64,000 nt of DNA, taken from Cellulomonas sp. Root485. GTDB taxonomy: Bacteria > Actinomycetota > Actinomycetes > Actinomycetales > Cellulomonadaceae. Made by a program: the position numbers and the translations under genes. Positions 36,091-55,801 of this stretch are shown piece after piece. How positions within the stretch are numbered: position 1 is the stretch's first letter; each line of letters starts with the position of its first letter. The DNA lies in contig NZ_LMFC01000001.1 in NCBI RefSeq assembly GCF_001426705.1, forward strand, positions 671,789 to 735,788. Reading direction: 5' to 3'. The notes under the pieces were generated by a model. The model was given only the letters and a program-made list of their open reading frames with translations. It had not been told where the DNA came from and searched no databases.

Positions 36091-37092
<1,002 letters not shown>

Positions 37093-37123: not shown

Positions 37124-38065
37124 CTATCGGCCGGGGTTCGCCCGGGCGTATTCGCCCAGCCCCGCGAGCAGGCTCTGGGACGTGGCGTGGATGCCGTGCA
37201 CGAGGGTCGTCATCGACCGACGGTCGAGCTCGGGCCAGACCACGGAGCGCAGCCGGAGGTCGCGGGCCTGCTGGGTGGCCAGGGGCGACGAGGCCATCCG
37301 GACCAGCACCTTGCGGCCGAAGACCCGTCGGCACTCGCCCAGCAGGTGCGCGATCGACGCGGCCTGCTGCGACGCCAGGATCTTGACGACCACGCGGCCG
37401 GGCTCCTCCTGCTCGACGCGGTCCAGCGCGTCGCAGACGAGGGCGGCGCAGTCGTCCACGAACACGTAGTCGCGGATCGTGTCCAGCGAGACGTACACGC
37501 CGACGGGCTCGTGCAGCAGGTTGGACAGGCAGAGTCGCGAGATCAGGCCCTGGTTCTTGGCCAGGTCCTGGCCGGGGCCGTACAGGTTGGAGATGCGGCC
37601 GACCACCACGCGGCTGACGGCGGCCAGCCGGCCGACCTCGGCCTCGGCGCGCAGCTTCGCGTGGCCGTAGCCACCGAGGGGGACGGGCACCGAGTCCTCG
37701 GTGAACGGGGGCAGGTCGCTCCCGCTGTACACGGCGCCCGCCGACGAGGCGAAGAAGGTGCGGCGGGGCGGGGCGGACGCCAGCAGCCGGTCGACGAGCC
37801 CGGCGATCGTGGCCACCTCGGCGTCGAGGATCTCGGGCGTCGCGCCGACCACCCCGGCGCCCGCGCACCACACGAGCGACCAGTCGCCGTCGGAGTCCGC
37901 GTCGACGCGCTCGGCGGCGGAGGCGAGGGCGTCGACCGCTCGCTCCGGGTCGGACCACGGGACGAGCGGGTGCGTGACCGTCGTGCCCCGGGCCTGCAGG
38001 GCGCGCCGGACGGCCGTGCCGAGCAGACCTCCGCCGCCGACGACGAGCGCGTGCCCGGTGGTCAC
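37124..38065 (-). CDS. NAD-dependent epimerase/dehydratase family protein
   Basis: A 313-residue extended short-chain dehydrogenase with N-terminal GGGGLLG and active-site Tyr133-x3-Lys137 in GGYGHAKLRAE. The ISNLYGPGQDLAKNQGLISRL segment is typical of sugar-nucleotide epimerases. The sugar substrate cannot be read from sequence. The GTG start overlaps the glycosyltransferase stop as GTGA, so it is translated from the same mRNA. It probably makes or tailors a sugar used by the adjoining transferase. Confidence 0.85.
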   Translation of the reverse strand: MTTGHALVVGGGGLLGTAVRRALQARGTTVTHPLVPWSDPERAVDALASAAERVDADSDGDWSLVWCAGAGVVGATPEILDAEVATIAGLVDRLLASAPPRRTFFASSAGAVYSGSDLPPFTEDSVPVPLGGYGHAKLRAEAEVGRLAAVSRVVVGRISNLYGPGQDLAKNQGLISRLCLSNLLHEPVGVYVSLDTIRDYVFVDDCAALVCDALDRVEQEEPGRVVVKILASQQAASIAHLLGECRRVFGRKVLVRMASSPLATQQARDLRLRSVVWPELDRRSMTTLVHGIHATSQSLLAGLGEYARANPGR

Positions 38066-39078
38066 CGGGTCGAGGGCTGACGGCCGAGCGGGCCGGCGCC
38101 CGGGTCGCTGACCATGAGGTAGGCGGGCTTGCCCATGGCCATGTTGACGGCCACGCCGATGTACTCCGCGATCACACCCAGCGAGAACAGGATCGCGCCG
38201 GTGCCGATCAGGACCACGACGATGATCGAGGTCCACCCGGCGGGGAGGGCCTCGCCGCCCGCCAGGCGCATGACCGCGAGCCCGAGCGCGAACAGGAGGC
38301 CGACGGTGGCGAACGTCACGCCGAGAAAGCTCACGGCGCGCAGCCCGCGGGTGCCGCTGGACAGGACCATGCGCCAGAAGTGCGACAGGAGCCGCCGCGT
38401 CGAGTAGCCCGACGCGCGGCCGAGCTCCTGGCGCGACTCCACCGGGCACGTGCCGGCCTCGCCGGCGACCCAGCTGAGCGCCACGTCGAGGTAGACGCCG
38501 GCTCCGGCGAACGCCGCCGTGCTGCGTGCCACCTCGCCCAGGACCAGCCGATAGCTCTGGTACTTCGAGGTGTCCGTGCCGCCCAGGCCGATCTCGATCA
38601 GCCGCTTCGCTCCGCGGGAGGCGGCGTTCCGGAACGCGCCGTGGGGGGGCGGGTTGGTCGGCTGGGCGTAGACGACGGACGCCTGCTGACGCATCGCCGC
38701 GTCGAGGAGGTCACCGATGTACGCGGGATCGTGCTGGCCGTCCTCGTCCATGGTCAGCACCCAGTCGCCGCCGCTGGACGCCATGCCCGCGAGCGTCGCC
38801 GCGTGCTGCCCGTAGTTGCGGCTCAGCCAGATGGTGCGGACCCAGGAGTGCTTCTCGGCGAGCTCGCGCATCACCGCGGGGGACCCGTCCGGTCCGTGGT
38901 CGTGGACCAGGAGGACCTCGGCGATCACCGCTCGGTGCCCGTCCGTCGTGCCGAACTCGTCGGTGAGCGGCTCGAGCTCGGAGACCACCTCGGCGAGGGT
39001 CTGCGCGCCCTGGTACACGGGGACGACGACCGAGATCCGGTGCGTCGTCGACAGGGGGGACACGGAGGGGTTCGTCAC
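38062..39078 (-). CDS. GtrB/DPM1-type family 2 glycosyltransferase
   Basis: A 338-residue GT2 enzyme with the N-terminal fold ISVVVPVYQGAQTL, the metal/nucleotide motif TMDEDGQHDP and two C-terminal membrane helices (about 262-285 and 295-325). This is the polyprenyl-phosphate glycosyltransferase layout (GtrB, ArnC, DPM1), which loads a sugar onto undecaprenyl phosphate. A GtrA-type protein is encoded divergently from the shared palindromic promoter, so the two may act as a loading-flipping pair. The GTG at 39078 lies 7 nt after a TATAGT box, implying a leaderless transcript. Confidence 0.92.
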   Translation of the reverse strand: MTNPSVSPLSTTHRISVVVPVYQGAQTLAEVVSELEPLTDEFGTTDGHRAVIAEVLLVHDHGPDGSPAVMRELAEKHSWVRTIWLSRNYGQHAATLAGMASSGGDWVLTMDEDGQHDPAYIGDLLDAAMRQQASVVYAQPTNPPPHGAFRNAASRGAKRLIEIGLGGTDTSKYQSYRLVLGEVARSTAAFAGAGVYLDVALSWVAGEAGTCPVESRQELGRASGYSTRRLLSHFWRMVLSSGTRGLRAVSFLGVTFATVGLLFALGLAVMRLAGGEALPAGWTSIIVVVLIGTGAILFSLGVIAEYIGVAVNMAMGKPAYLMVSDPGAGPLGRQPSTR

Positions 39079-39082
39079 TGCA

Positions 39083-39096
39083 ACGACTATAGTCGT
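39083..39096. promoter_or_regulatory. palindromic bidirectional -10 element
   Basis: The 14 bp at 39083-39096 are a perfect palindrome centred on CTATAG. Each strand therefore carries a TATAGT -10 box (39088-39093 on plus, 39091-39086 on minus). The minus box stands 7 nt before the GT2 GTG (leaderless) and the plus box lies 59 nt before the GtrA-like gene. Confidence 0.65.
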
Positions 39097-39152
39097 GGGG
39101 CGTTGCGCCCAGGGACGTCCCCTCGAGCGCCGGTCCACAGGAAGAGAGCAGG

Positions 39153-39743
39153 GTGCAGGAGAACACGTCCGCAGACCCGACCGGACCGGAGACGGAACCC
39201 CCGGCGGGCATGCACGGCGACCTCGGCCCGCTGTTCCGGCTGGTCCGCGATCGCCGGGTCGCCTTCCTCATCGTCGGCGGGATCAACACGCTGATGGGCA
39301 CCGCGTGGTTCATCCTGTTCCAGTCCCTGCTGGGCGACACGTTCGGCCAGTACACCTACATGCTGAGCCTGCTGTGCGCGCACGTGTGCGCCGTGCTCAC
39401 CGCCTTCGTGCTCTACCGGCGGTTCGTCTTCCGCGTGCGGGGGCACGTGTGGCTGGACCTGTGGCGGTTCGAGCTGGTGAACCTCAGCGCGCTCGGGATC
39501 AACGCGCTCGCCCTGCCGTTCGTGGTCCAGGTGCTCGGTCTGCAGCCCATCCCGGCGCAGCTGCTGGTGACCTGCGTGACAGCGCTGATCAGCTACTTCG
39601 GGCACCGCGACTTCTCGTTCCGTCGCAAGCACGCCGCTGAGGAAGAGGCTGTCGCACCGAACCCGCCCGTCGTCCCCGGTGGCGCCCCCGGCGCCCCGAT
39701 CACCGCGCCCGAGAGCGCGTCACCTCGAGAGGGTGTGGCATGA
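39153..39743 (+). CDS. GtrA family membrane protein
   Basis: A 196-residue GtrA-like protein with four membrane helices between about residues 35 and 155 (VAFLIVGGINTLMGTAWFILF, the LLCAHVCAVLTAFVLYRRFVF segment and the last helix ending in FGHRDFSF). The N-terminal 30 residues and the C-terminal 40 are hydrophilic and Pro-rich. It probably flips a lipid-linked sugar made by a GtrB-type enzyme. The GTG at 39153 follows a GGAAGAGAGCAGG ribosome site. The next gene starts inside its stop codon (ATGA). Confidence 0.88.
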   Translation: MQENTSADPTGPETEPPAGMHGDLGPLFRLVRDRRVAFLIVGGINTLMGTAWFILFQSLLGDTFGQYTYMLSLLCAHVCAVLTAFVLYRRFVFRVRGHVWLDLWRFELVNLSALGINALALPFVVQVLGLQPIPAQLLVTCVTALISYFGHRDFSFRRKHAAEEEAVAPNPPVVPGGAPGAPITAPESASPREGVA

Positions 39744-40603
39744 CCCCCACCGTGTCCGTCGTCGTCCCGGCCTACAACAACGCGGACTTCGTCGGCGAGA
39801 CCGTGCGCTCGGTGCTCGCCCAGACGTACACCGACTTCGAGCTCATCGTCGCGGACCACGCGTCCAGCGACGCCACGTGGGACGTGCTGCAGGAGTTCGC
39901 CGACGACCCCCGGGTACGCCTGCTGCGCACCCCCGCCGGCGGGGGAGCGAAGGCCAACTGGGACGCCGTGAGCAAGGCCGCGACCGGCGAGCTCATCAAG
40001 CTCGTCTGCGGCGACGACGTGCTGTACCCGCAGATGCTCGAGCGCCAGGTCGAGCAGTTCCGCGCGCACCCCCGCGCGGAGGTCGTCGCCTCACGCCGGG
40101 ACATCGTCGACGCCCACGGGACCGTGCTGGTCAAGGGGCGCGGCCTCGGTCGCCTGCAGGGGGAGATGTCCGGCGCGAAGGCGCTGCGCAAGTCGATCCT
40201 GGCCGGCGGCAACATCTTCGGCGAGCCGATGTGCGTGATGATGCGGCGCGAGACGCTCGAGCAGGTGGGCTGGTGGGACGACCGCCAGCCGTACTACATC
40301 GACCTCGGCACCTACGCGCACGCCCTGGTGCGCGGGACGTTCGTCGCGGTGCCCGAGACGCTCGCGGGCTTCCGGGTCAGCGCCAGCCAGTGGAGCGTGC
40401 GGCTCACCGACGAGCAGAGCGGGCAGGCGGCGCAGTTCCACGCCCGGGTGCACGAGGCGCACCCCGAGGTCGTGTCACGGCTCGACGTCACCGTCGGGAA
40501 CGTCATGGCCCGGGTGGCCGCGCTGCGCCGCCGGCTCGCCTACGCGTGGCTCGGCCGGCGCATGAGCGCGCCCGCACCGAGCGCCGCGACCAGCGACGCC
40601 TGA
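39740..40603 (+). CDS. family 2 glycosyltransferase
   Basis: A 287-residue GT2 enzyme with a single Rossmann-like GT-A domain. It shows VSVVVPAYNNADFVGETVRS, LIVADHASSDATWD and the metal-binding GDDVLYP. A conserved acceptor region follows (GEPMCVMMRRETLEQVGWWDD). No membrane helices are seen, so it is probably a cytoplasmic, membrane-associated transferase acting on the growing polysaccharide. It overlaps the GtrA-like gene by 4 nt and is convergent with rfbD. Confidence 0.92.
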   Translation: MTPTVSVVVPAYNNADFVGETVRSVLAQTYTDFELIVADHASSDATWDVLQEFADDPRVRLLRTPAGGGAKANWDAVSKAATGELIKLVCGDDVLYPQMLERQVEQFRAHPRAEVVASRRDIVDAHGTVLVKGRGLGRLQGEMSGAKALRKSILAGGNIFGEPMCVMMRRETLEQVGWWDDRQPYYIDLGTYAHALVRGTFVAVPETLAGFRVSASQWSVRLTDEQSGQAAQFHARVHEAHPEVVSRLDVTVGNVMARVAALRRRLAYAWLGRRMSAPAPSAATSDA

Positions 40604-40621: not shown

Positions 40622-41473
40622 TCAGACTGCGAGCACCGCGGCGGACGCCTGCTGCCAGCGCTCGCGCCAGTCGGCGATCGGTGCCAGGCCGGCGCTGGTG
40701 CTCGCGGCGTGGTCCAGGACCGACCAGGCGGGCCGCCGGGCTGCGCGGTCGAGCGTGCCGCTGGTGCTGGGGCTGACGATGTCGGGGTCCAGGCCGCCGG
40801 CCTCGACCACCGCGCGCGCGAACTCGTACCAGGACGCCTGCCCGGCCGACGTGGCGTGGTAGGTCCCTGACGGGACACCGTCGAGGACCGCCTGCACGGC
40901 CTGCGTGGCCACGTCGTGCGTCCAGGTGGGCTGGCCGACCTGGTCGTCGACCACCGAGAGGGCGCCGCGCTCGCGGGCGACACGCAGGATCGTCTTCGGG
41001 AAGCACGGCCCGCCGGCACCGTAGAGCCACGCGGTGCGCAGGATGAGGTGGCGGCCGGGGGCCTCGGCCCGCACGGCCCACTCCCCGGCGAGCTTGGTGC
41101 GCCCGTACGCGGACAGCGGGCGGGGCACGGCGTCCTCGGGGATGGGGTGCCCGGCGGTGCCGTCGACGACGTAGTCGGTCGAGACGTGGACGAGGGTCGC
41201 GCTGTGGATCCGCGCGGCGCGGGCGACGTAGCCCGCGGCCAGGGCGTTCGTCGCGAACGCCTCGGGCTCCCGAGCCTCGGCGTCGTCCACGGCCGTCCAG
41301 GCGGCGCAGTTCACGATCACGTCGTGACCGGAGACCGCCCGCTCGACCGCGTCGGCGTCCGTGACGTCCAGCGAGCGGCGGTCGGTCGTCGTGACGGTCT
41401 CCCCTCGAGCCGTCAGGACATCCACCACATCGGACCCGAGCATGCCGGCCGCGCCGGTCACCAGCCATCGCAC
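40622..41473 (-). CDS. rfbD: dTDP-4-dehydrorhamnose reductase
   Basis: A 283-residue RmlD/RfbD, the last step of dTDP-L-rhamnose synthesis (NAD(P)H-dependent reduction of the 4-keto group). The N-terminal TGAAGMLG motif, HVSTDYVVDG, active-site Tyr123-x3-Lys127 in SAYGRTKLAGE, and the VDDQVGQPTWTHD segment are diagnostic. The GTG at 41473 lies 6 nt after a TACTCT box on the minus strand; a second GTG two codons upstream is possible. It is about 3.5 kb from rfbB and not in the same operon. Confidence 0.95.
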   Translation of the reverse strand: MRWLVTGAAGMLGSDVVDVLTARGETVTTTDRRSLDVTDADAVERAVSGHDVIVNCAAWTAVDDAEAREPEAFATNALAAGYVARAARIHSATLVHVSTDYVVDGTAGHPIPEDAVPRPLSAYGRTKLAGEWAVRAEAPGRHLILRTAWLYGAGGPCFPKTILRVARERGALSVVDDQVGQPTWTHDVATQAVQAVLDGVPSGTYHATSAGQASWYEFARAVVEAGGLDPDIVSPSTSGTLDRAARRPAWSVLDHAASTSAGLAPIADWRERWQQASAAVLAV

Positions 41474-41479
41474 CCGCAC

Positions 41480-41485
41480 AGAGTA
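41480..41485 (-). promoter_or_regulatory. -10 element of leaderless rfbD
   Basis: TACTCT on the minus strand ends 6 nt before the preferred GTG at 41473. Confidence 0.5.
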
Positions 41486-41588
41486 CGTGCACGAGCGGGG
41501 ACCGCCCGACGGTCGCCACCGTGACCGGAGTCGGGCCTGGCGGCGCGTCGGCCTGTGCCCATGGCGGCGGACAGGTGATCCTGGACGG

Positions 41589-44500
41589 ATGCTCGCCCAG
41601 ACAGCCCGTGCCACCGTCGTCGCGCTCGCCGTGGTCGGCTGCGGGCTGCTGCCCGCGCAGACGGCGGTCGCCGCACCTGCCTCTTCCGTCGCGTCAGCAT
41701 CCTCCGTGCTCGCGGCACCAGCCCCGCCGGAGGTGTCGGTCGACGAGGTGCCGGTGGAGGTGACCACGCCGCTCCCGTCGGTCGACGCGTCGGTGGACGA
41801 GCCCGCGCGCGTCGTGAGCGACGTCATCGAGGCGGACGTCTTCCAGACCGTCGGCATCACGTGGGTCGAGGGCACCGCTGCGGCGGACGTCGACGCGCAG
41901 GTCCGGACGCGCTCGGGGGACACCTGGAGCGAGTGGATGCCGCTCGAGACGGCGGACGAGGCCCCGGACAACGGAACCGTCGAGGACCGGCGGGCCCTGC
42001 GGGACGGCACCGACTCGCTCTTCGTCGGTGATGCCGACGCGGTGCAGGTGTCGCTCGCGGCCGGCGCCGGCGACCCGGACGACCTCTCGGTCTCGCTCGT
42101 GGGCTCCGACCTCGTGGCGGCGGCGCTGCCGACCGGCGGGCGGGGAGCGTCCGCGCCGGCCGGGCAGAAGATGCTGGGCGCCGCGGTGCTCCCCACGGCG
42201 GTCTCGTCGCAGCCCGCGATCGTCAGCCGTGCCGCGTGGGGCGCGCGGGCGCCGGCCTGCACGCCCGACGTCGCCTCGCGGCTGGTCGGCGCCGTCGTGC
42301 ACCACACCGCCGACGGGGACTACGGCTCGGTCGCCGAGGCGATGCAGGCCCTGCGCAACGACCAGCGGTTCCACATCGAGTCCCGCGGCTGGTGCGACAT
42401 CGGCTACAACTTCGTCGTCGACAAGTGGGGCAACATCTACGAGGGCCGCGAGAGCTCGCTGACCCGGTCCGTGATCGGTGTCCACGCCGGCGGTTTCAAC
42501 ACCGCGACGGTGGGCATCTCGATGCTCGGCAACTACACGTCGCAGGCGCCGTCGGGCGCGATGATCGACGCGGTCGCCCGGGTCGCGGCGTGGCGGCTCG
42601 GCGCGTACGGCGTCGACCCGACCGGTCGGGTCTCCTACACGACGCTGGGTGGGGAGAACTCCCGGTACGCCGCAGGGACCACGGTGAACCTCCCGACGAT
42701 CTTCGCGCACCGGGACGTCGGGCTCACCGCGTGCCCCGGTGACATCGGCTACCAGTACATGGACCAGATCCGTGGTCTCGCGCGGAGCTACTGGGACCGG
42801 TACGGGCCCAGCGGGCTGGGCGCGAACCTGGTCAAGTCGCCGGACAACCCCGCGGTGTACCTGGTCACGGCGCACTACAAGTACAAGGTGGCGGACCCCG
42901 AGGTCCTGGCGGCGCTCTGGCCGCTGGGGCCGGTCGCGGTGGTGGGGCAGGGGGCGCTCGACGCCCGGACCACCGGGGTCGGGCTGGGGCGCTTCGTGCG
43001 CGACCAGCAGGGTGAGATCGACCTGTTCGACCGCGGCACGCTGTACCGGGCGGGGGACTGCGACGAGCTCGCCGCGTGGGGAGCCAGCTGTGCGGACTTC
43101 TCGACGATGGGGCTCCCGGACCCGATGGTCGCGCTGCTCGGACGCGGTCCGGACCTGTCCACCGCGTTCTGGACACCGACGGGCCGCCAGTTCGTGGTGT
43201 CGGCGGGCACCCGGTACGAGATCGCCGACGGCACCGCACTGCAGGCGTCACCGATCCAACCGAACGGTGCCTCCGTGCCGCTCGGCGAGACCGTCGCCGA
43301 CCGCCTGCCGCTCGGTGCCCCGATCGTGCGCACCGGGATCGTGGTCCAGGCTCGCGGGAACGGGTCCGGCGTCCTGCTCGACCGCACGTCGGGGCTGCGC
43401 ATGTCGGCGGCCTACATCTCGACGGCGCGGATCGGTCAGGCGCTGCCGCTGCGCCAGCTCGACGCCGCGAGCATCGCCCTGCTGCCCGCTCCCCGCGGCG
43501 ACCTGACGGGGGTCCTGCGCGCACCGGACGGGCGGCGCGTCGCCCTGACCATGGGCGGCTCGGTGGTGCTGGCCGCCGACCAGGTGCCGGGAGACCCGGG
43601 CATCGCGGTCGATGCGTCCCTGATCGCGGCGCTCGCACCCGGCGGACCGGTGAACCCGCTGTTCGTGCGGTCCGTCGAGTCGTCCGCGCTCTTCGTCCTG
43701 GCCGGAGGCGTCAAGCGACCGGTGCCGACGATGGAGGTCGCCTATGCCCTCGCAGCCGGCGCGCCGCTCGTCGTCGCGCTCGTGCCGCAGGCCGCCCTCG
43801 ACGCGGTGACCCCCGGTCCGTCCCTCCTGGCTCCGGCCACGCTGGTGAAGGTGGCGGGAGCGCCGTCGGTGTACGTCGTCGACGGGCTCTCGCGGCTGGT
43901 GCACCTGCCGTCCTTCGAGATGGCCCGCGCCACCGGTCTGCCGACGTCGTACAGCGAGGTGCCGTCCGCCTCGGTGACCGGGTACGCCGTCGCCTCCCAG
44001 CCGCTCGGGACGATCTGGCGCTGCGGCGCGCAGGACGCCGTCGCTCTCGACGGGAGGATGACCCCGATCCCCGCGGGAGTCGTCGCCTCGGGCGGGACGC
44101 CCGCGACCGTCATGGACCCGCTGACCTGCGCGCACACCCTCGGTGGCCCCGGGTGGACCGGGCCGGTGTTCGTCCGGGCCACGGGCTCGTCCGCGCTCTT
44201 CGTGCTCGCGGGCGGGATCAAGCGCCCGGTGCCGACGATGGACATCGCCTACGCCCTCGCCGGCTCGCGGTTCGTCCTCGCCGAGGTGCCCGCGGCGAGC
44301 CTCACGTCCGTGCCCGCGGGACAGACTCTCGTGGGCGCGCCCGGATCCCTGGTCAAGGTCGCCGGTGCCGCGCCCGTGTACGTCGTCGACGGCCTCGCCG
44401 GGCTCGTGCACCTGCCGTCGTTCGAGGTCGCGCAGGCGGTCGGCCTGCCGACGACGTTCACGGAGGTCCCCGCGTCGGCGATCACTGGCTACACGGTGGC

Positions 44501-44843
44501 CGCCCGGCCGCTGGGCACCCTGTGGCGCAGCTCGGGGCAGGACTACGTGGCGATCGGAGGGCGGATGTCGCCGGTCGCGGCGGGCCTGGTCACCTCGGCG
44601 GGTGCGCCGGCCAGCGCGGTCGACGCCCTGACGCTGGCCCGGGCACCGCGCGGCGGAGCGTGGGGTGGGCCGGTGTTCGTGCGCTCGACCACCTCCGCGG
44701 CGCTCTACTGGCTCACGGGCGGGACGCGTCGGCCGGTGGCGACCATGGACCGCGTGTACGCGATCGCCGCGGGGGCGGGGGTCGTCGTGGCCGTCGTGCC
44801 GCAGGCAGCGCTCGACCTCGTGCCTGTGGGGGCCACCGCCTGA
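41589..44843 (+). CDS. secreted PGRP-type N-acetylmuramoyl-L-alanine amidase with repeat module
   Basis: A 1084-residue exported protein. A signal peptide (about 1-29, ending TAVAAPA) is followed by a low-complexity region and a beta-rich segment. A PGRP/amidase_2 domain spans about 205-400, with zinc ligands in VVHHTA (His238/239), His374 in FAHRDVG and Cys382 in TACPGD; the His-Cys spacing of eight is that of catalytic PGRPs. It should cleave the muramoyl-alanine bond of peptidoglycan. From about residue 411 a long repeated beta-rich module follows. The last part contains two full 169-residue units and a partial third, starting at 43662, 44169 and 44676. The same module ends the protein encoded at 47320-50652. 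The ATG at 41589 gives the signal peptide. Confidence 0.9.
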   Translation: MLAQTARATVVALAVVGCGLLPAQTAVAAPASSVASASSVLAAPAPPEVSVDEVPVEVTTPLPSVDASVDEPARVVSDVIEADVFQTVGITWVEGTAAADVDAQVRTRSGDTWSEWMPLETADEAPDNGTVEDRRALRDGTDSLFVGDADAVQVSLAAGAGDPDDLSVSLVGSDLVAAALPTGGRGASAPAGQKMLGAAVLPTAVSSQPAIVSRAAWGARAPACTPDVASRLVGAVVHHTADGDYGSVAEAMQALRNDQRFHIESRGWCDIGYNFVVDKWGNIYEGRESSLTRSVIGVHAGGFNTATVGISMLGNYTSQAPSGAMIDAVARVAAWRLGAYGVDPTGRVSYTTLGGENSRYAAGTTVNLPTIFAHRDVGLTACPGDIGYQYMDQIRGLARSYWDRYGPSGLGANLVKSPDNPAVYLVTAHYKYKVADPEVLAALWPLGPVAVVGQGALDARTTGVGLGRFVRDQQGEIDLFDRGTLYRAGDCDELAAWGASCADFSTMGLPDPMVALLGRGPDLSTAFWTPTGRQFVVSAGTRYEIADGTALQASPIQPNGASVPLGETVADRLPLGAPIVRTGIVVQARGNGSGVLLDRTSGLRMSAAYISTARIGQALPLRQLDAASIALLPAPRGDLTGVLRAPDGRRVALTMGGSVVLAADQVPGDPGIAVDASLIAALAPGGPVNPLFVRSVESSALFVLAGGVKRPVPTMEVAYALAAGAPLVVALVPQAALDAVTPGPSLLAPATLVKVAGAPSVYVVDGLSRLVHLPSFEMARATGLPTSYSEVPSASVTGYAVASQPLGTIWRCGAQDAVALDGRMTPIPAGVVASGGTPATVMDPLTCAHTLGGPGWTGPVFVRATGSSALFVLAGGIKRPVPTMDIAYALAGSRFVLAEVPAASLTSVPAGQTLVGAPGSLVKVAGAAPVYVVDGLAGLVHLPSFEVAQAVGLPTTFTEVPASAITGYTVAARPLGTLWRSSGQDYVAIGGRMSPVAAGLVTSAGAPASAVDALTLARAPRGGAWGGPVFVRSTTSAALYWLTGGTRRPVATMDRVYAIAAGAGVVVAVVPQAALDLVPVGATA
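43662..44843 (+). repeat. tandem 507-bp coding repeats (amidase C-terminus)
   Basis: The codon for Phe in the conserved LFVR/VFVR phrase recurs at 43662, 44169 and 44676, exactly 507 nt (169 codons) apart. Each full unit holds three related sub-blocks of about 56 residues. The landmarks are ALFVLAGG.KRPVPTM, VYVVDGL...HLPSFE and LGT.WR. The final copy stops after about 56 residues. Confidence 0.9.
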
Positions 44844-44891
44844 CGCCCGGTCGGAGGACGACCCGAGGCACGGGAGCCCGGGGCCGGACGG

Positions 44892-44897
44892 TACGCT
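44892..44897 (+). promoter_or_regulatory. possible -10 element upstream of the gene at 44938
   Basis: TACGCT lies 40 nt before the GTG at 44938, which has its own GGAG ribosome site, giving a short leader. Confidence 0.4.
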
Positions 44898-44937
44898 CGC
44901 ACCTGCTCGTCACCGGATCGCTTGGAGTGAGGCTGTC

Positions 44938-47208
44938 GTGTCCACCGTTCACAACGTCGAGGTGAGCGGTCCCGCAGGTGCCGCGCTCGTCGACGCGCCG
45001 CCGCGCCGCAGCTGGTGGCTCGGCGACCGTGGACGCAGCGTCCTGGCCTACCTCGCGGCCGTGGTGGGCACCATCGGCTTCACCGCCTGGGCGCAGCGCC
45101 TGTGGCTGGCGGACCTGCACGTGCCCTTCCGGTACTACGGCGACGCGATCGCGGTGTCCGCGCACGTCAAGACCACGTTGGGCACCGGGTGGTACGAGCA
45201 CGAGCCGCTGCTCGGTGCACCGGCGGGGCAGAGCTATCACGACTACCCGGCGGCCGACAACCTGCACCTGCTCATCATGAAGATGATGGGCTGGGTGCTC
45301 CAGGACTGGGCCGTCACGCTCAACGTCTACTTCCTGCTGGGCTTCCCGCTGGCAGCGCTGACCGCCATGGTGTTCTTCCGCACCGTCCGCCTCGGCCGGA
45401 TCTCGTCGGCCGGGATGGCCATCCTGTTCGCCCTGGCGCCGTACCACTTCATGCGCGGCGAGGACCACCTGTTCCTCGCGTCGTACTACCCGGTGCCGCT
45501 CGGTCTGATCCTCGTGGTGCGGGTGCTGCGCGGCCAGCCCCTGTGGACCCTGAACCGGGGGAGCGTGCGCGCGGTCGTCACCAGCCCGGCCGTCGCGACG
45601 GTCGCCATCGCCGCGCTCGTGTCGTCCGGCGCCTCGTACTACGGCGTGTTCACCGTCGTGCTCCTGGGCGTCTGCGGGATCGCGGCCTTCGTGCACCGCC
45701 GGCAGTGGCGCCGGCTGGTCGGCGCGGTGGCGGCGGGCGTCGCGTTCCTGGGGTTCATGGTCGCGAACATGCTGCCGGACCTCGTCTGGGCCGCGACGCA
45801 CGGGGAGAGCGTGGGGTCGCTGGTCCGTCCGGCGGGCGACGCGGAGTTCTACGCGCTCAAGATCACCTCGCTCCTCCTGCCTCAGCCCGGTCACGCGGTC
45901 CCCTTCCTGGCGTCCGTGCGCGACTGGTACGACGCGAACTACCCGCTGGCGTCGGAGCAGCCGGTCCTGGGTGCCGTCGGTGCTGCCGGCCTCGTGGCGC
46001 TCCTCGCGATCGCGGTGCTGGCGGTGCTGCGGCCCAGGGACAGCGTCGTGCGTGTCGGCTGGCGGCTCACCACCCTGGTCGAGCTGGCCGGCATCACCCT
46101 GATCGCTCTGCTCTTCTCCACGGTCGGAGGGCTCGCGACCCTCATCTCCTTCCTCTCGCCCGCGGTGCGCGGGTGGAACCGGATGGCGATCGTCATCTCC
46201 CTGCTGACGCTCGCCGCCGTGGGCCTCATGCTCGACGGCGCCCGCGAGTGGCTCGCCCGCCGCTCCGGCGCGCGGACCGCGACCGTCGTCGCGGCGGTCG
46301 TCACCGGTCTCGTCGTGCTCGTCGGGGTCGTCGACCAGGTCGCTCCGATCCGCCGTCCTGACCACGCGGCCAACCAGGCGGCCTTCGCTGCCGACGCGGC
46401 CTGGGTCGCGGACGTCGAGGCCGAGCTCGGTCCCGGGGCGATGGTCGCGCAGCTGCCGCGTGCGGGCTTCCCCGAGACACCACCGGTCAACGGCGTCCTC
46501 GACTCCGACCAGCTGCGCCCGTTCCTGCACTCGGACACGCTGCGCTGGACCGGGGGCGGGATCAAGGGCCGCGCCGTCAGCGACTGGATGGTCGCGGTCG
46601 ACCCGCAGGACGCGTCGTCGTCGGCCGTGCAGCTCGCGGCAGCCGACGCGGCAGGGGTCGTGCTCGACCGCCAGGCGCTCGGCGAGACGGCGGCCGACGT
46701 GTCGGACGCGTGGCGCACGGTCGTCGGTGAGCCCGCGGTCGTCAGTGCCGACGGGCGCTACGAGATGTACGACCTGCGCCCCCTGCGGGCCGAGCTCGTC
46801 GCCCGCGACGGTCAGGAGACCGTCGACCAGGCCGCGGACGGCATCCTGCGCCCGACGCTCCCGTACCCCGGCGAGAAGGTCCAGGTCGGCACCGCTGGCG
46901 ACCGCAACCTCTGGGTGGGCCCCGGGGGAACCCTCGACATCCTGCTCGACAACGCGCGGGACTCGACGGCGCGCGTCCGGCTCACGTTCACGGTCGCACC
47001 GGAGGGTGCCCCCGTGCGGGTGACGTGGGACGGCGAGTCTGTCGAGGCCGGTCCGGGCGAGCTCGTCGACGTGACCATCGAGGCCCCGTCCGGCGCCTCG
47101 ACCGTGCACGTGGAGCACGTGGACCCGCAGGACACCTCACCGGTCCAGCTGCTCGGGGTGAGCGCGACCCTGCTCGACCGTCCCGTCCTGGCGCCGCCCG
47201 CCGGCTGA
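44938..47208 (+). CDS. large polytopic membrane protein with extracytoplasmic C-terminus
   Basis: A 756-residue protein. About eleven membrane helices cover residues about 33-480; the remaining 275 residues are soluble and include a beta-sandwich-like end (VRLTFTVAPEGAPVRVTWDG). The first outer loop carries GDAIAVSAHVKTTL and YHDYPAADN, a pattern seen in putative sugar translocases or GT-C transferases of polysaccharide clusters. No family can be named with certainty. The GTG start has GGAG about 10 nt upstream. It lies between the two genes that share the 169-residue repeat module and is on the same strand. Confidence 0.7.
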   Translation: MSTVHNVEVSGPAGAALVDAPPRRSWWLGDRGRSVLAYLAAVVGTIGFTAWAQRLWLADLHVPFRYYGDAIAVSAHVKTTLGTGWYEHEPLLGAPAGQSYHDYPAADNLHLLIMKMMGWVLQDWAVTLNVYFLLGFPLAALTAMVFFRTVRLGRISSAGMAILFALAPYHFMRGEDHLFLASYYPVPLGLILVVRVLRGQPLWTLNRGSVRAVVTSPAVATVAIAALVSSGASYYGVFTVVLLGVCGIAAFVHRRQWRRLVGAVAAGVAFLGFMVANMLPDLVWAATHGESVGSLVRPAGDAEFYALKITSLLLPQPGHAVPFLASVRDWYDANYPLASEQPVLGAVGAAGLVALLAIAVLAVLRPRDSVVRVGWRLTTLVELAGITLIALLFSTVGGLATLISFLSPAVRGWNRMAIVISLLTLAAVGLMLDGAREWLARRSGARTATVVAAVVTGLVVLVGVVDQVAPIRRPDHAANQAAFAADAAWVADVEAELGPGAMVAQLPRAGFPETPPVNGVLDSDQLRPFLHSDTLRWTGGGIKGRAVSDWMVAVDPQDASSSAVQLAAADAAGVVLDRQALGETAADVSDAWRTVVGEPAVVSADGRYEMYDLRPLRAELVARDGQETVDQAADGILRPTLPYPGEKVQVGTAGDRNLWVGPGGTLDILLDNARDSTARVRLTFTVAPEGAPVRVTWDGESVEAGPGELVDVTIEAPSGASTVHVEHVDPQDTSPVQLLGVSATLLDRPVLAPPAG

Positions 47209-47261
47209 GGCCACGCCGACCCGCCTGACCCGGGGTCCTGGGTGCGCTGTTGCTTTCGGGG

Positions 47262-47267
47262 TAGCCT
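47262..47267 (+). promoter_or_regulatory. possible -10 element upstream of the gene at 47320
   Basis: TAGCCT is a fair TAnnnT match 52 nt before the ATG at 47320, which has a GGAGG site 8 nt upstream. Confidence 0.4.
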
Positions 47268-47319
47268 GCCTGCGCACCGGCGCACGCCCGGGGGCGTGGG
47301 CGCGACGGAGGTCTCGAAG

Positions 47320-50300
47320 ATGGCGCGGGGTTCGTGGTGGACAGCGACGGCCGTCGTCGTCGCCCTGCTCACCGGCGGGCTCGTGGCGGCCGACGTCGCC
47401 ACCGCGCCACCGTCCGCCGCCGCGGCGGCGAGCGACTTCCGGCCCGGGAACATCATCAGCGACGCGCTCTTCTTCGACGGCGCCGCCATGAGCGAGGGCG
47501 ACGTCCAGGCGTTCCTCAACATCAAGCGGCCGACGTGCACCGCGGGCTACACCTGCCTGAAGGACTACGTCACCGCGACGACGGACCAGCCCGCGGAGGC
47601 CAACCTCTGCAACGCCTACTCGGGCCGTGCGCAGGAGACGGCGGCGCAGGTCATCGCGCGCGTGGGTGCGGCCTGCGGGATCAGCCAGAAGGTGCTGCTC
47701 GTCCTCCTGCAGAAGGAGCAGGGCCTGGTCACCGCGACGGCACCCACGGACGCGCGCTACCGGTCCGCGACGGGCTTCGCGTGCCCGGACACCGCGCCGT
47801 GCGACGCCCAGTACTACGGCTTCTTCAACCAGGTCTACCGCGCAGCGCGGCAGTTCAAGCGCTACGCCGCGAACCCGCAGAACTACACCTACCGCGTCGG
47901 ACGCACCGTCAACGTCCTCTTCCACCCGGACTCCGCGCGGTGCGGCAGCAGCCCCGTCTACATCGAGAACCAGGCGACGGCGGGCCTCTACACGTACACG
48001 CCGTACCAGCCCAACGGCTCGGCGCTGGCGAACATGTACACCACCGGCGACTCGTGCTCGTCGTACGGCAACCGCAACTTCTTCCGCGAGTACAGCGACT
48101 GGTTCGGGTCGACGCAGTTCGGCGCCAACCTGGTCAAGGCGGCGAACGACCCGACGGTCTACCTGCTCACCGTCGACGGCAAGCACCAGGTGCAGAACCC
48201 GGTGATCCTCGAGTCGCTGAGCGACCTGGGCGGCATCGCCGTCGTCTCCCAGTCCGTGCTCGACATGCGGCCCACGGGCGTCGCTCTCGGCAGGTTCATC
48301 CGTGACCGCAACGGGGCGATCTCCCTGTTCGACCGCGGATGGCTCTTCTCGGTGCCCGACTGCGCGATGCTCGTGGACTGGGGGACGTCGTGCGCCAACT
48401 ACGGCTCCCTCGTGCTCTCCGACTCCCAGATGTCGCGCTTCCGGCCGGGCGGCGTGCTCTCGCAGTCGTACACGACGGTCGAGGGCTCCTGGTTCTACGT
48501 GCACGACGGCAAGCGCCGCGAGGTCTTCGACGCGGCCTCCCTGGCGCTCGCACCCGTCGCGCCGACGACGCCCACCACGCACCTCAACGACGCCGCCGGC
48601 GCTGACCTGCCGATCGACGCGCCGCTGGTCCGGCCGGGTGTGCTGGTGCGCAACGGGTCGACGGGTGCCGGCGTCCTCGTCGACGCCGCCGGGTCCACCC
48701 CGGTCAGCGCCGCGATGCTCGCGGCGACCGCCCTGACCCGGGTCCTGCCCACGCGGACGTTCGACACCCGCAGCGTCGCCGCGATCGCCACCAGCGGTAC
48801 CCCGCTGCCCGGCGTCGTGCGCGGCGCGGACGGCACCCGGTACGGGCTCACGGGGACGGGTGCGGTACGCCTGGGCACGGAGCTGCCGACCTCGGTCACG
48901 GGACCGGTGGTCTCGGCCCCGGTCCTGTCCGCGCTCGCGCCGACGACCACGACCGGGCCGATCTTCGTCCGCTCCGCGCAGTCGTCTGCGCTCTTCTACG
49001 CGACCGCCGGCACCCGCCGGCCCGTCGCCAGCATGGAGACCGTGTACGCCCTCGCGGCGGGGGCGCCCGTGACTGTCGTGGTCCTCGAGCAGTCCGTGCT
49101 CGACGCCGTCCCGCAGGGTGCACCCGTGCTCACCCCGGGCAAGGTGGTGAAGTCGACGACGGCCCCCGACCTGTATCTCGTCGACGGGCTCGGCTCGCGC
49201 CGGCACGTCCCGTCGTTCTCGGTGATGTCCGAGCTCGGCGTCGGCGGGTACACCGAGGTGCCTGCCGCGTCGCTCACCGGGTACGCCGTCGCGGCGGGCG
49301 AGCTCGGCACGCTGTGGTCGTGCGGGTCCCAGAACTATGTGGGGATCGGCGGCGCGCTGCGGCCGATCTCCAGCGCCGCCGCCACCGCCAGCGGCCTGCC
49401 GTTCGTCCCCACGGACGCGCTGACGTGCGCGGCGCTCCCGCGCTCGACCGCGGAGATCACGGGACCGGTCTTCGTGCGCTCGGCACAGTCGCCCGAGCTC
49501 TTCTGGGCCTCGGGCGGCAAGCGCCGCGCGGTGAGCAGCATGACCACCGTCTACGGCCTGGCGGCCGGTGCGCCGGTGGTCGTCGCGACGCTCGAGCCGG
49601 CCGCGCTCGCCGCCCTCCCGCTCGGTGCACCGGTGCTCGAACCGGGCAGGGCCGTGAAGTCGAGCGCAGCATCCGACATCTACCTCGTCGACGGGCCGGG
49701 CACGCTCCGGCACGTGCCGTCGTTCGCCGTGCTCACGGAGCTGGGCGTCTCGGGGTACACCGAGGTGCCCGCGGCGTCCCTGTCGGGCTACACGGTTGCG
49801 ACCGGCCAGCTCGGCACGCTCTGGGCGTGTGGTGCCCAGCGGTACGTCGGTGCCGGTGGCGCGCTGCGACCGCTGTCGTCCGCCGCCGCCGACGCCACCG
49901 GGCTGCCGTTCGTGACGATGGACCCCATGACGTGCGCTGCCGTGCCGCGCTCGACGGCGACGTTGACCGGCCCGCTGTTCGTCCGCTCCGCGCAGTCCCC
50001 GGCCCTGTACCTCGCGGCAGGCGGCCAGCGCCGTCCGATCACGAGCATGGACACCGTCTACACGCTCGCCGCCGGCGGTCCGGTCGTCATCGCGACCGTC
50101 GAGCAGTCCGTGCTCGACGCGCTGCCCGAAGGGTCGGCGGTCCTCACGCCCGGTCGAGTCGTGAAGTCGGTGGCCGGTCCGGACCTGTACCTCGTGGACG
50201 GTGCGTCGACGCTCCGGCACGTGCCCTCGTTCACGGTGCTCGCCGAGCTCGGTGCGGGTGCCTACGCCGAGGTGCCCGCGGCGTCGCTCACGGGCTACAC

Positions 50301-50652
50301 CACCGCCTCGGGCCAGCTCGGCACGCTGTGGTCGTGCGGTGGGCAGGCCTACGTCGGGACGGGCGGCTCCCTGCGGCCGCTGTCCGCGGGCGCCGCGGCC
50401 GCGACCGGTCTGCCGTTCGTGGTCACCGACCCGTCGACCTGCGCGGGGCTGCCGCGGACGGCCGCGATGCACACCGGGCCGCTGTTCGTCCGGTCCCCGG
50501 GGTCGGCGACGATCTACCTGGCCTCGGGTGGGCAGCGCCGACCGGTGACCAGCATGAGCACCGTGTACGCGTTGGCCGGAGGCGGCCCGGTCGTCATCGC
50601 CACGCTCGAGCAGGCCGTGCTGGACACCCTGCCGCTGGGTGCAGCGGTCTGA
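47320..50652 (+). CDS. secreted protein with lysozyme-like head and 169-residue repeats
   Basis: An 1110-residue exported protein with a signal peptide at about 1-36 (MARGSWWTA, then a hydrophobic core). Residues about 40-265 form a Cys-containing domain beginning FRPGNIISDALFFDG, with SMSxxxVQxFLN-like spacing. It includes LLQKEQGLVT around Glu133, reminiscent of the catalytic glutamate of lysozyme/transglycosylase folds. I infer a muramidase-like role, not proven. From residue 268 (GANLVK) the sequence aligns with the C-terminal half of the amidase at 41589. Three full 169-residue units and a partial fourth finish the protein. The ATG has GGAGG upstream. It is convergent with the gene ending at 50660. 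Confidence 0.82.
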   Translation: MARGSWWTATAVVVALLTGGLVAADVATAPPSAAAAASDFRPGNIISDALFFDGAAMSEGDVQAFLNIKRPTCTAGYTCLKDYVTATTDQPAEANLCNAYSGRAQETAAQVIARVGAACGISQKVLLVLLQKEQGLVTATAPTDARYRSATGFACPDTAPCDAQYYGFFNQVYRAARQFKRYAANPQNYTYRVGRTVNVLFHPDSARCGSSPVYIENQATAGLYTYTPYQPNGSALANMYTTGDSCSSYGNRNFFREYSDWFGSTQFGANLVKAANDPTVYLLTVDGKHQVQNPVILESLSDLGGIAVVSQSVLDMRPTGVALGRFIRDRNGAISLFDRGWLFSVPDCAMLVDWGTSCANYGSLVLSDSQMSRFRPGGVLSQSYTTVEGSWFYVHDGKRREVFDAASLALAPVAPTTPTTHLNDAAGADLPIDAPLVRPGVLVRNGSTGAGVLVDAAGSTPVSAAMLAATALTRVLPTRTFDTRSVAAIATSGTPLPGVVRGADGTRYGLTGTGAVRLGTELPTSVTGPVVSAPVLSALAPTTTTGPIFVRSAQSSALFYATAGTRRPVASMETVYALAAGAPVTVVVLEQSVLDAVPQGAPVLTPGKVVKSTTAPDLYLVDGLGSRRHVPSFSVMSELGVGGYTEVPAASLTGYAVAAGELGTLWSCGSQNYVGIGGALRPISSAAATASGLPFVPTDALTCAALPRSTAEITGPVFVRSAQSPELFWASGGKRRAVSSMTTVYGLAAGAPVVVATLEPAALAALPLGAPVLEPGRAVKSSAASDIYLVDGPGTLRHVPSFAVLTELGVSGYTEVPAASLSGYTVATGQLGTLWACGAQRYVGAGGALRPLSSAAADATGLPFVTMDPMTCAAVPRSTATLTGPLFVRSAQSPALYLAAGGQRRPITSMDTVYTLAAGGPVVIATVEQSVLDALPEGSAVLTPGRVVKSVAGPDLYLVDGASTLRHVPSFTVLAELGAGAYAEVPAASLTGYTTASGQLGTLWSCGGQAYVGTGGSLRPLSAGAAAATGLPFVVTDPSTCAGLPRTAAMHTGPLFVRSPGSATIYLASGGQRRPVTSMSTVYALAGGGPVVIATLEQAVLDTLPLGAAV
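48955..50652 (+). repeat. tandem 507-bp coding repeats (three full, one partial)
   Basis: Units start at 48955, 49462, 49969 and 50476 with an exact 507-nt period. Each contains FVRSAQS.AL, RRPV.SM.TVY, YLVDG...RHVPSF, EVPAASL.GY, GTLW.CG and GGALRP landmarks. Copies differ at scattered codons, so they are old or diversified. The last unit ends after about 58 residues, at almost the same phase as in the amidase gene. Confidence 0.93.
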
Positions 50653-53804: not shown

Positions 53805-54661
53805 GACGGACTCCTGAGGGTGTCGAGCACACCGCTCGCGCGGAGCCGGACAGCACTGTCCGTGGGTGTGCCGAGGAGATCGAGGGGTTGGGCGAAGCCG
53901 TCCCGCGGCCGGTGCCGACCTGCGGAGCCGAGGATCTCCTCGAGCTGCAGGACGGCCCGGTCCGGGCTGTGCTCGCGCGCGTACAGCGCGTGACAGCCCT
54001 GGGCGTGCCGGGCGAGCGCGGCGGGGTCGGCCAGCAGCCGCTCCGCCTCCTCGTCCGGGGTGGCTGACGCTCTCTCCTTCGGGAGGGGAAGGTCGAGCTC
54101 GCGAGCGAGCTCCACCGGGGCCACGACGGGAGCCCCCCATGCCGCGCCGAGCACGGCTGTCGTGGCGTCGTCCGTCACGAGGACGCTGGCGAGAGCCGCG
54201 GCGGAACCCGCCGCGCTCTCGTCGACCGGCTGGTGGTCCCAGGACCACTGACCGGCGACGTGTCGGGCGACCGCGGTCGCGTCCTGCAGCCCACGCGCGC
54301 GACGGATCCGCGAGCGCGTGAACGGGGCGACGGGGCGGGCGCTGGTGTGGGCCTCCTGCGGCCCGAGCGCGAGGACGGGTGCCGTGACGCGGGTCCGCAC
54401 CTCGCGGGCGACGGCCGGCGCCGCGAGGACGACCACGGCCGCCGCGACGGCGGGTGCGGTCAGGTCCGTGTCGGCGTCGACCCAGACGGTCGTGCGCTCG
54501 CCGTAGGGTCCGGGCGCCTCGGCGGTCCGGACCACGGTGTCGAACCGGCCACCGTCCACCACGGCCCTGACATCGGCACGTTCCGCGAGCCGGGTGAGGG
54601 CGGCCCGCAGGTCGTCACCGACCGGAGCACGGGTGGCGATACCGATACGGAGTCGGTTCAT
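53801..54661 (-). CDS. conserved hypothetical, degenerate glycosyltransferase-like
   Basis: A 286-residue protein I cannot place firmly. It begins with a Rossmann-like strand MNRLRIGIATRAP. The segment WGAPVVAPVELARELDLP followed by EEAERLLADPAALARHAQGCHALY resembles the C-terminal domain of GT-B glycosyltransferases, where a displaced subfamily keeps the fold but loses the donor-binding EX7E motif. It is rich in Ala and Val. The ATG at 54661 overlaps the GT4 stop as ATGA and its own stop overlaps the methyltransferase start, so it is co-translated with both. It might be a partner subunit of the neighbouring transferase; that is speculation. Confidence 0.65.
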   Translation of the reverse strand: MNRLRIGIATRAPVGDDLRAALTRLAERADVRAVVDGGRFDTVVRTAEAPGPYGERTTVWVDADTDLTAPAVAAAVVVLAAPAVAREVRTRVTAPVLALGPQEAHTSARPVAPFTRSRIRRARGLQDATAVARHVAGQWSWDHQPVDESAAGSAAALASVLVTDDATTAVLGAAWGAPVVAPVELARELDLPLPKERASATPDEEAERLLADPAALARHAQGCHALYAREHSPDRAVLQLEEILGSAGRHRPRDGFAQPLDLLGTPTDSAVRLRASGVLDTLRSPS

Positions 54662-55668
54662 GCGAGGAGCTGCTCGACGACGGACGGCCAGGACAGCTGG
54701 GCGACCCGCCGCCGACCTTCCATGCCCATCTCCGCGGCTGCCGCCTTGTCGGACGCCAGCCTGTCGATCGCGTCGGCGAGGCCCTGCGGGGTGCCGTCGG
54801 TCACGATGCCGGTGACGCCGTCCTCGACCCACTCGAGGACTCCGCCGGCGTCGTGCGAGGTGATGACGGGCTTGCCGGCGAGGAACGCCTGCAGCGTGAC
54901 GTAGCCGTAGTCCTCGTCGTGGGGGTCGTAGATGACCCCGAGCGAGTCCGCGAAGAGGTCGACGAGCGCGTCGTCGGGCACGAAGCCCGGCAGCTCGACG
55001 CGGTCGGCCAGGTCGTCGCGCTCGACCGCCTTGTGCAGCTCCGCCGACATCGAGCCACGGCCGGCGACGATCGCACGGATGCCGGAGCTCACGTGGGGCA
55101 TCGCGGCGACGATCCGCTCGGGGCGCTTGTTGGCCTCGAGCCGGGTGGGCGTGAACACGTAGTCGCCGTACTCGCCGACCCGGAGCTCGTCCGAGAGGGG
55201 CGGGGGGTGGTAGAGCGTGGTGCCCGTGAGGCCGTTGTACCGGGCGAGACGGTCCGCGACCACGTCGGAGATGGTGTGGATCCGCTGCGCCTCGAGCAGC
55301 GCGTTCGTGTCCCACTCGGTCAGCTGCCGCTGGATCTCGAGCGACTCGTCGTCCAGGCCCATGTCCGACCAGGCGGCGTCGGCACCGTCGTAGGCGCCAC
55401 GGTGCTGGTGGAAGAGCCACACGATCTTGCGGTGGTGGCGCGCGTAGTACGAGGGGAAGTTCGTGGCGATGACAGCGTCCGCGTCGAGCGGCAGCATCCG
55501 CCACGCGAGCGGGGCGTCGAACACGCGCTCCTTCTCCCACGCCGTCGGGAGGTGGACCAGCTCGGCGCGGTGCCCGTTCTCCTGCAGCGCGCGGACGAGG
55601 TTCGCTGTGGCCAGCTCAGCCCCTCCGCGCACGAAGGGCACCTGGGCGCCGCACACGATCACATCCAT
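54658..55668 (-). CDS. family 4 glycosyltransferase
   Basis: A 336-residue GT-B enzyme. The N-terminal acceptor domain opens MDVIVCGAQVPFVRGGAE. The C-terminal donor domain has VFTPTRLEANKRPERI, VELPGFVPDDALVDLFADS and a late EDYGYVTLQAFLAGKPVITSHDAGG, the place of the GT4 EX7E motif; here it reads DYGYVTLQA, so the first Glu is replaced by Asp/Gly. It should transfer a sugar from a nucleotide donor to the polysaccharide. It is the first gene of the five-gene minus-strand operon, with GAGGAA upstream. Confidence 0.9.
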   Translation of the reverse strand: MDVIVCGAQVPFVRGGAELATANLVRALQENGHRAELVHLPTAWEKERVFDAPLAWRMLPLDADAVIATNFPSYYARHHRKIVWLFHQHRGAYDGADAAWSDMGLDDESLEIQRQLTEWDTNALLEAQRIHTISDVVADRLARYNGLTGTTLYHPPPLSDELRVGEYGDYVFTPTRLEANKRPERIVAAMPHVSSGIRAIVAGRGSMSAELHKAVERDDLADRVELPGFVPDDALVDLFADSLGVIYDPHDEDYGYVTLQAFLAGKPVITSHDAGGVLEWVEDGVTGIVTDGTPQGLADAIDRLASDKAAAAEMGMEGRRRVAQLSWPSVVEQLLA

Positions 55669-55710
55669 CGGGGTGGTTCCTCGTTCCGGTCGGGGGTGGC
55701 GGCGCGCTAC

Positions 55711-55716
55711 ATGCTA
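55711..55716 (-). promoter_or_regulatory. -10 element of the minus-strand five-gene operon
   Basis: TAGCAT on the minus strand lies about 42 nt before the ATG at 55668, giving a short leader with a GAGGAA site. Confidence 0.45.
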
Positions 55717-55763
55717 GCCGTCCCGCGAGCGGTCGCCCGGAGCCGTGACCGCGGCGGTCCCGG

Positions 55764-55769
55764 TACGCT
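55764..55769 (+). promoter_or_regulatory. -10 element of the Wzm/Wzt operon
   Basis: TACGCT on the plus strand lies 32 nt before the ATG at 55802. It is about 50 nt from the divergent minus-strand box, so the two operons share one control region. Confidence 0.45.
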
Positions 55770-55801
55770 CTGACGTTCGTGAGCAACTGCAGGAACGCGC
55801 G

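Follow-up and report, generated by a model that had tools for sequence, protein, structure and literature searches.

A shared tail of EccB-like repeats on an amidase and a lysozyme-like protein beside polysaccharide genes in Cellulomonas

Introduction

Why would two different cell-wall hydrolases carry the same long tail next to genes for polysaccharide synthesis? This question is raised by a stretch of 64,000 nucleotides from Cellulomonas sp. Root485 (contig NZ_LMFC01000001.1, positions 671,789 to 735,788; hereafter the window), which encodes an N-acetylmuramoyl-L-alanine amidase and a lysozyme-like protein with related C-terminal parts. A preliminary description, made without database searches, had suggested that this shared part is a targeting scaffold for the wall polymer made at the locus. 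Here we report the shared module, its unit structure, its predicted EccB-like fold, the exchange of such tails between hydrolases and their co-location with polysaccharide genes, all as computed in this work. Our preferred reading, which we consider probable, is that EccB-type repeats form a wall-binding array in this tail and so keep several hydrolases at the wall.

A common tail on two heads

Both reading frames were open at the coordinates of the preliminary description, and the GANLVK motif at which the resemblance was said to begin indeed started at residue 411 of the amidase and residue 268 of the lysozyme-like protein. BLASTP aligned residues 395-1082 of the amidase with residues 252-939 of the lysozyme-like protein over 690 columns (286/690 identities, 41%; 4 gaps; E 3e-152), whereas no significant match was found between the two heads. 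The claim of unrelated heads with a common C-terminal module was thus confirmed, the two C-terminal halves being clearly similar. Extra, offset alignments between the tails revealed internal repeats. No third place in the same genome matched the lysozyme-like protein at E<=0.001.

The repeat had been described as a unit of 169 residues. This period is real, with unit starts at residues 280, 449, 618 and 787 in the longer tail, but the basic repeat is about 55 residues, three of which (a triplet abc) make up one period. A hidden Markov model (HMM) of the ~55-residue unit counted 12 units for the amidase and 15 for the lysozyme-like protein. It gave 9 for G058, which is the single further genome of the genus with a lysozyme-like protein in the window's tail class (BLAST clusters); some units scored near or below zero in this HMM, and some boundaries were set by hand. 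The tails were ordered as five N-terminal units, one to three abc triplets and a closing unit of type a. Across 510 units from all sources, the consensus runs from [FL]V[RK] and a strand with the sequence VYLV through GG and a stretch of basic residues to a V-x-S turn and then a helix.

Neither Pfam nor NCBIfam had a family that matched the tail above cut-off, and no model of either library covers the module. The window tails had no Pfam match to LGFP (PF08310), CWB2 (PF04122), SH3 or choline-binding repeats, in agreement with the earlier view that the module is not of the LGFP, CW_binding, ChW or SH3 type, and no match to EccB (PF05108) over the curated cut-off. Among the literature matches listed, of which titles and abstract openings were covered and most subscription papers were beyond reach, there was no description of the tail module or of the lysozyme-like head on hydrolases.

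Predicted structure of the tail

The preliminary description had proposed structure prediction as a check and had considered a β-propeller. The 15-unit tail was modelled with AlphaFold2 from an alignment of 36 sequences (predicted local distance difference test score, pLDDT, 91.1; predicted template modelling score, pTM, 0.64), and the typical unit was predicted as strand-strand-strand-helix-strand-helix, with four strands and two helices. EccB1 contains four repeats of 51-57 residues, in each of which two helices accompany a sheet of four strands (PMC4769845). The tail model and the structure search point to this same repeat fold. Foldseek returned 12 PDB matches at E<=1e-3, and ranks 1-11 were EccB chains (best 5ebc, E 1.2e-7, probability 1.00). 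They were assigned as EccB1 or EccB3 by PDB title, or as the B chains of ESX-5 complexes, which we take to be EccB5. Rank 12 was a sensor domain (probability 0.38), presumably the first propeller protein in the list. The β-propeller reading was rejected because the units contain helices and the EccB matches stand on top.

Sequence comparisons gave further hints of this kinship. With a broad unit HMM, 10/20 EccB proteins outscored every one of 120 controls, which were reversed or shuffled sequences (20 of 21 EccB loci were used, with L223 left out). This HMM matched the EccB of L216 on four stretches, which by eye appear to lie on repeats R1 to R4. A profile of 36 tail rows (A3; 34 of 47 loci tails plus the two window tails) found EccB1 in the PDB at 8e-4, ranked below LysM matches, which arose because some rows contain LysM domains; LysM matched 11/36 rows at E<=1 (best 4.4e-47). 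Tails mixing EccB-like units and LysM-like stretches were seen at L140, L142, L144, L154, L159, L162, L177 and L189, mostly in Microbacteriaceae-type metagenome-assembled genomes. The window's own genome had no EccB match at E<=1e-10, and no type VII secretion system family turned up among the window proteins scanned against Pfam.

Distribution and exchange of tails

Of 394 genomes of the class, the window's own among them, at least 12 had the module in a profile search, and they represent 6 of 138 genera. The figures are lower bounds because three candidates were scored per genome. A named scan, in which both search patterns lie in the lysozyme-like head and the best 80 of 567 stretches were kept, gave 82 lysozyme-like head frames, and 50 of them carried two or more units; this sample is biased toward the tail because the query contained it. 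The module occurred on four kinds of heads, namely lysozyme-like, Amidase_2, GH25 and reprolysin-like metalloprotease. Amidase_2 carriers elsewhere were found in G412 and in G336, whose head is 45% identical to that of the window by BLAST and is followed by three weak units. In Cellulosimicrobium cellulans MP1, a three-unit amidase and a lysozyme-like protein that bears the tail are encoded ~10 kb apart. At L138, a GH25 muramidase with an EccB-like tail (L138:14355-17030) and a lysozyme-like protein, the tails of which are sisters, lie ~4 kb apart, and a reprolysin-like metalloprotease bearing an EccB-like tail was found in Aeromicrobium (L130:1-2682, G412/G616). The matches in G412 and in the Aeromicrobium sp. 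Leaf350 genome (L150) have identical coordinates.

In a tree of 37 chosen tails, the tails of the window pair were sisters (100/100), and so were the GH25 and lysozyme-like tails of L138 (100/99). Sister tails on differing heads suggest that tails have been copied between heads within genomes, though not always.

The slot behind the heads is filled by other modules in relatives. Among 98 genomes (own included), the lysozyme-like head was found in 41 at E<=1e-6 and the amidase head in 78 at E<=1e-20. A scan of 64 tails that lysozyme-like heads carry elsewhere gave matches to LGFP (11), FG-GAP_3 (7), CWB2 (3), CBM_4_9 (3) and DUF4214 (1) at E<=1e-5. Many of the remaining ones consist of an Ig-like repeat (GWxxDPDT), of which the single example tested matched nothing in Pfam at E<=1e-3. 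This repeat of ~105 residues (GWALDPDTxxPIxVHVYVDG; for example, L101:4069-5622) forms the commonest tail class, with 41 of 79 clustered tails. An amidase tail class of the type VNPSLSxTSV (cluster 2) was seen at L082:15039-16472 and 11 others; the single example tested matched just FlgD Ig, and weakly. The suggestion of an undescribed wall-binding family stands in part: the module has no family model and sits where relatives carry LGFP and CWB2, but its predicted fold, although not that of a described wall-binding family, is already known from EccB.

The tails of the two genes tend to agree. Tail classes were defined as single-linkage BLAST clusters, and both genes were classified in 27 same-genus genomes, the window's included (G016 and G051 have two amidase matches each, one of which was classified). 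The two genes had the same tail class in 20/27 genomes against 13.4 expected, a value reached in 1 of 100,000 shuffles, and in 4/11 against 0.8 expected when Ig/Ig pairs were removed (p 0.0016). The Ig class accompanies amidase heads that are 38-43% identical to that of the window, and common descent may thus account for some of the coupling. In 24/27 of these genomes, the two genes are found within 25 kb of each other (hand count from coordinates). In G027 (L094:5476-8284), the DUF4214 tails of the amidase and the lysozyme-like protein are 100% identical over 208 residues; judged by their sequences, they represent a recent copy.

Catalytic domains

The amidase head belongs to Amidase_2 by its Pfam match and its motifs, VVHHTAD (from residue 236), FAHRDV (from 372) and TACPGD (from 380), which we assume to hold the zinc ligands.

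The lysozyme-like head had no Pfam or NCBIfam family above cut-off. Scattered weak matches to these libraries were obtained with 65 heads (best E 0.0086), and searching the PDB with a profile of the aligned heads gave chance-level matches alone. Glu133 was invariant in 10/10 rows of alignment A2 and 65/65 rows of alignment A4 (64 of 82 heads plus the window head) and was placed on a helix in the head model. Foldseek found nothing in the PDB at E<=0.001 with this model; 16 of the 20 top weak matches were wall or chitin hydrolases, including a chitinase, LytB (probability 0.60, query TM-score 0.44), goose-type lysozymes, SltB1 and a clostridial wall hydrolase. We conclude with moderate confidence that the head is a glycosidase of the lysozyme superfamily, as far as the model can tell. 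The family is common in actinomycetes, as the named scan confirmed at least 567 stretches. Two lysozyme-like head genes per locus were seen at L174 and L196; in the L196 pair, one tail is CWB2 and the other is Ig-like by eye.

Genomic context

The two hydrolase genes were described as part of a polysaccharide locus, and this holds (Table 1). LytR-CpsA-Psr proteins join glycopolymers to peptidoglycan. The RmlB- and RmlD-like proteins, GtrA, the glycosyltransferases, the ABC-2 permease and two LytR-CpsA-Psr proteins make up the set expected for a peptidoglycan-joined glycopolymer. With 22 window queries at E<=1e-15, homologs of the window polysaccharide genes were found in 31/40 same-genus hydrolase regions (32 genomes, 449 kb) and in 0/40 control regions at hand-picked places in the same genus (640 kb; Fisher p 4e-14). 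They were also found in 58/80 named loci. Some RmlB matches near hydrolase genes are at 26-29% identity, and other epimerases may be among them. A tie between the glycosyltransferase 2/GtrA/glycosyltransferase 2 trio and this tail class was not supported (6/49 versus 2/31 named loci, p 0.47).

Table 1. Features of the window, with positions counted from its first nucleotide
Feature	Position	Strand	Evidence
Amidase, Amidase_2/PGRP-type N-acetylmuramoyl-L-alanine, with 12-unit EccB-like tail, 1084 aa	41589..44843	+	Open frame; signal peptide by eye
Amidase_2 catalytic domain, amidase residues 234-385	42288..42743	+	Pfam E 4.5e-17
Amidase tail, 12 units of ~55 aa (5 + abc + abc + a), 1-2 weak in HMM	42816..44840	+	Unit HMM
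Lysozyme-like protein with 15-unit EccB-like tail, 1110 aa	47320..50652	+	Open frame; signal peptide by eye
Lysozyme-like head, unnamed family, model pLDDT 96	47410..48117	+	Alignment, model
Glu133 (QKEQG), candidate catalytic acid, invariant	47716..47718	+	Head alignments A2, A4
Lysozyme-like protein tail, 15 units of ~55 aa (5 + 3 x abc + a)	48118..50649	+	Unit HMM, model
Large membrane protein between the two hydrolases	44905..47208	+	By eye; start uncertain; no Pfam match at E<=0.01
Two adjacent LytR-CpsA-Psr genes	31319..32713, 32717..33967	-	Pfam E 8.9e-42 and 2e-42
RmlB-like dehydratase (name by resemblance)	36091..37086	-	Pfam GDP_Man_Dehyd and Epimerase matches
Glycosyltransferase family 2	38062..39138	-	Pfam E 4.1e-18
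GtrA-type membrane protein	39153..39743	+	Pfam E 1.1e-19
Glycosyltransferase 2-like protein	39740..40603	+	Open frame, named by eye; homologs near hydrolase genes in relatives
RmlD, dTDP-rhamnose synthesis	40622..41518	-	Pfam E 7e-83
ABC-2 transporter permease	55745..56755		Pfam scan
Five glycosyltransferase group 1/4 proteins	Starts 54658, 57309, 59129, 60510, 61568; region 54658..62683		Pfam scan

Interpretation and alternatives

In the explanation that we favor, the array of ~55-residue EccB-type repeats would grip the wall of the producing cell and keep the amidase and the lysozyme-like glycosidase there, most likely through repeated weak contacts with a wall glycopolymer. The ligand would plausibly be a rhamnose-containing polymer whose synthesis and attachment to peptidoglycan would be the work of the surrounding genes. 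Copying of the tail between hydrolases of one genome could then supply several enzymes with one address.

Several results weigh against this explanation or parts of it. The global TM-scores of the tail model to EccB in Foldseek were <=0.17, with a root mean square deviation of ~30, over whole long arrays. Long arrays with differing overall bends do not superpose as wholes, and we therefore take the EccB match as one at the level of the unit. With the broad unit HMM, 10/20 EccB proteins failed to beat the controls, and a first, narrower HMM put just 4/20 above the best control (13.1 bits). A three-row profile (A1) found no EccB in the PDB, PF05108 matched just 2/36 tail rows at E<=1 (best 4.8e-4), and the hhalign comparison of the tail with EccB was modest (E 8e-6, 84%). 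Sequence support for an EccB kinship of the tail is thus modest. The three module tails of the G412 genome were not sisters in the tree, the tail classes of the two genes differed in 7/27 genomes, and these 27 genomes are related, a kinship that the shuffles ignore. Finally, we infer the binding of the wall by the tail, its ligand and the action of both enzymes on the own wall, and wall binding by EccB itself is a suggestion of the EccB1 authors (PMC4769845).

The alternative that survives best, although we regard it as unlikely, is that the tail binds peptidoglycan itself and the polysaccharide locus is a general cell-envelope gene cluster. The LysM matches in 11/36 tail rows would fit, LysM being a peptidoglycan binder, and FG-GAP, DUF4214 and Ig-like tails fill the same slot in relatives. 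To our knowledge, these three are not known as polymer readers. Peptidoglycan binding was also put forward, as a putative function, by the EccB1 authors (PMC4769845). However, CWB2, which reads the polymer PSII and not peptidoglycan (PMC4973711), holds the slot in 3/64 other tails, and the tail class varies among species of one genus more strongly than would be expected for peptidoglycan.

It is improbable that the tail is a spacer or a protein-protein scaffold, for example, of a hydrolase complex, with no wall-binding role. EccB is part of ESX membrane complexes by PDB titles (7nps, 7np7 and 6sgy), and the FG-GAP and Ig-like tails could be spacers, but the exchange with LGFP and CWB2, the company of LysM and the presence on four unrelated heads fit targeting better. 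Very improbably, the enzymes are weapons whose tails read the wall of a competitor, like those of endolysins and bacteriolysins, an idea that agrees with the modular exchange of heads and tails and with weak Foldseek matches (E 0.4-1.7) between single units and certain phage lysins and amidases but not with the own polysaccharide genes near the hydrolase genes in 31/40 regions of the genus or with the lack of any phage record for tail or head and of any plasmid record for the head in tblastn.

A phage or plasmid origin was rejected on the same tblastn searches (phages for tail and head, plasmids for the head only). A viral contig scan yielded no confirmed relative, with 2 stretches matching a pattern. 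In the viral structure library BFVD, the first match of the tail was an Orpheovirus protein (probability 0.25) and the second a protein of Rhodococcus phage Weasels2 (A0A1I9SA71, 115 aa; 118 columns, E 1.6e-4, probability 1.00). A protein of Streptomyces phage LukeCage (A0A345MGB2, 102 aa) also matched the tail in fold (64 columns, E 0.12, probability 1.00).

The locus adds an uncatalogued, probably wall-binding repeat family and an uncatalogued family of lysozyme-like enzymes. A grip of EccB repeats on the wall, so far an open suggestion, becomes testable, since the same predicted fold is found on hydrolases in the slot of known binders, and the occurrence of one tail on several hydrolases beside polymer genes offers a route to finding the polymer that each tail reads. 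One may go further and suppose, tentatively and with some doubt, that actinobacteria in general use EccB-type repeats to read wall glycans, with the arrays, copied from hydrolase to hydrolase within a genome, as a species-specific address for the polymer made next door and EccB as the same reader anchoring the type VII secretion machine in the wall.

Comparison with known systems

Exchanged wall-binding tails on modular hydrolases are already well known; an EccB-type array in such a role and the lysozyme-like head are absent from the family libraries searched. The head has a weak fold likeness to glycosidases of the lysozyme superfamily, presumably GH73 and GH23, with which it has the invariant Glu on a helix in common. 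It differs from them in several invariant cysteines, in having no PDB sequence match and in belonging to an unnamed family. LGFP and CWB2 repeats occupy the same C-terminal slot on the lysozyme-like head in relatives, but they are other sequence families, which the window tails do not match.

The periplasmic domain of EccB (PF05108; EccB1 structures 4kk7, 3x3m and 5cyu) resembles the tail in repeat size and make-up and is its best structural match. However, EccB has four repeats around a core domain behind a transmembrane helix, within a secretion machine, whereas the tail has 12-15 repeats behind a secreted hydrolase head, and the EccB-type architecture is not found in it. A likeness has been described between repeat 1 of EccB1 and PlyCB (PMC4769845), the subunit by which the streptococcal phage lysin PlyC binds walls, and PlyCB recognizes streptococcal polyrhamnose (PMC13059722). 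PlyCB is an eight-membered ring of separate subunits, unlike the tail, to which it may be linked via EccB alone.

The CWB2 repeats of Clostridioides difficile offer a likeness in gene arrangement. They are common to several surface proteins and encoded beside the likely locus of their anionic polymer ligand (PMC4973711). The repeat and the phylum are different from those of the tail, and the C. difficile ligand was shown experimentally (PMC4973711). Together with the recognition of polyrhamnose by PlyCB, this arrangement gives a precedent for a polymer ligand made next door.

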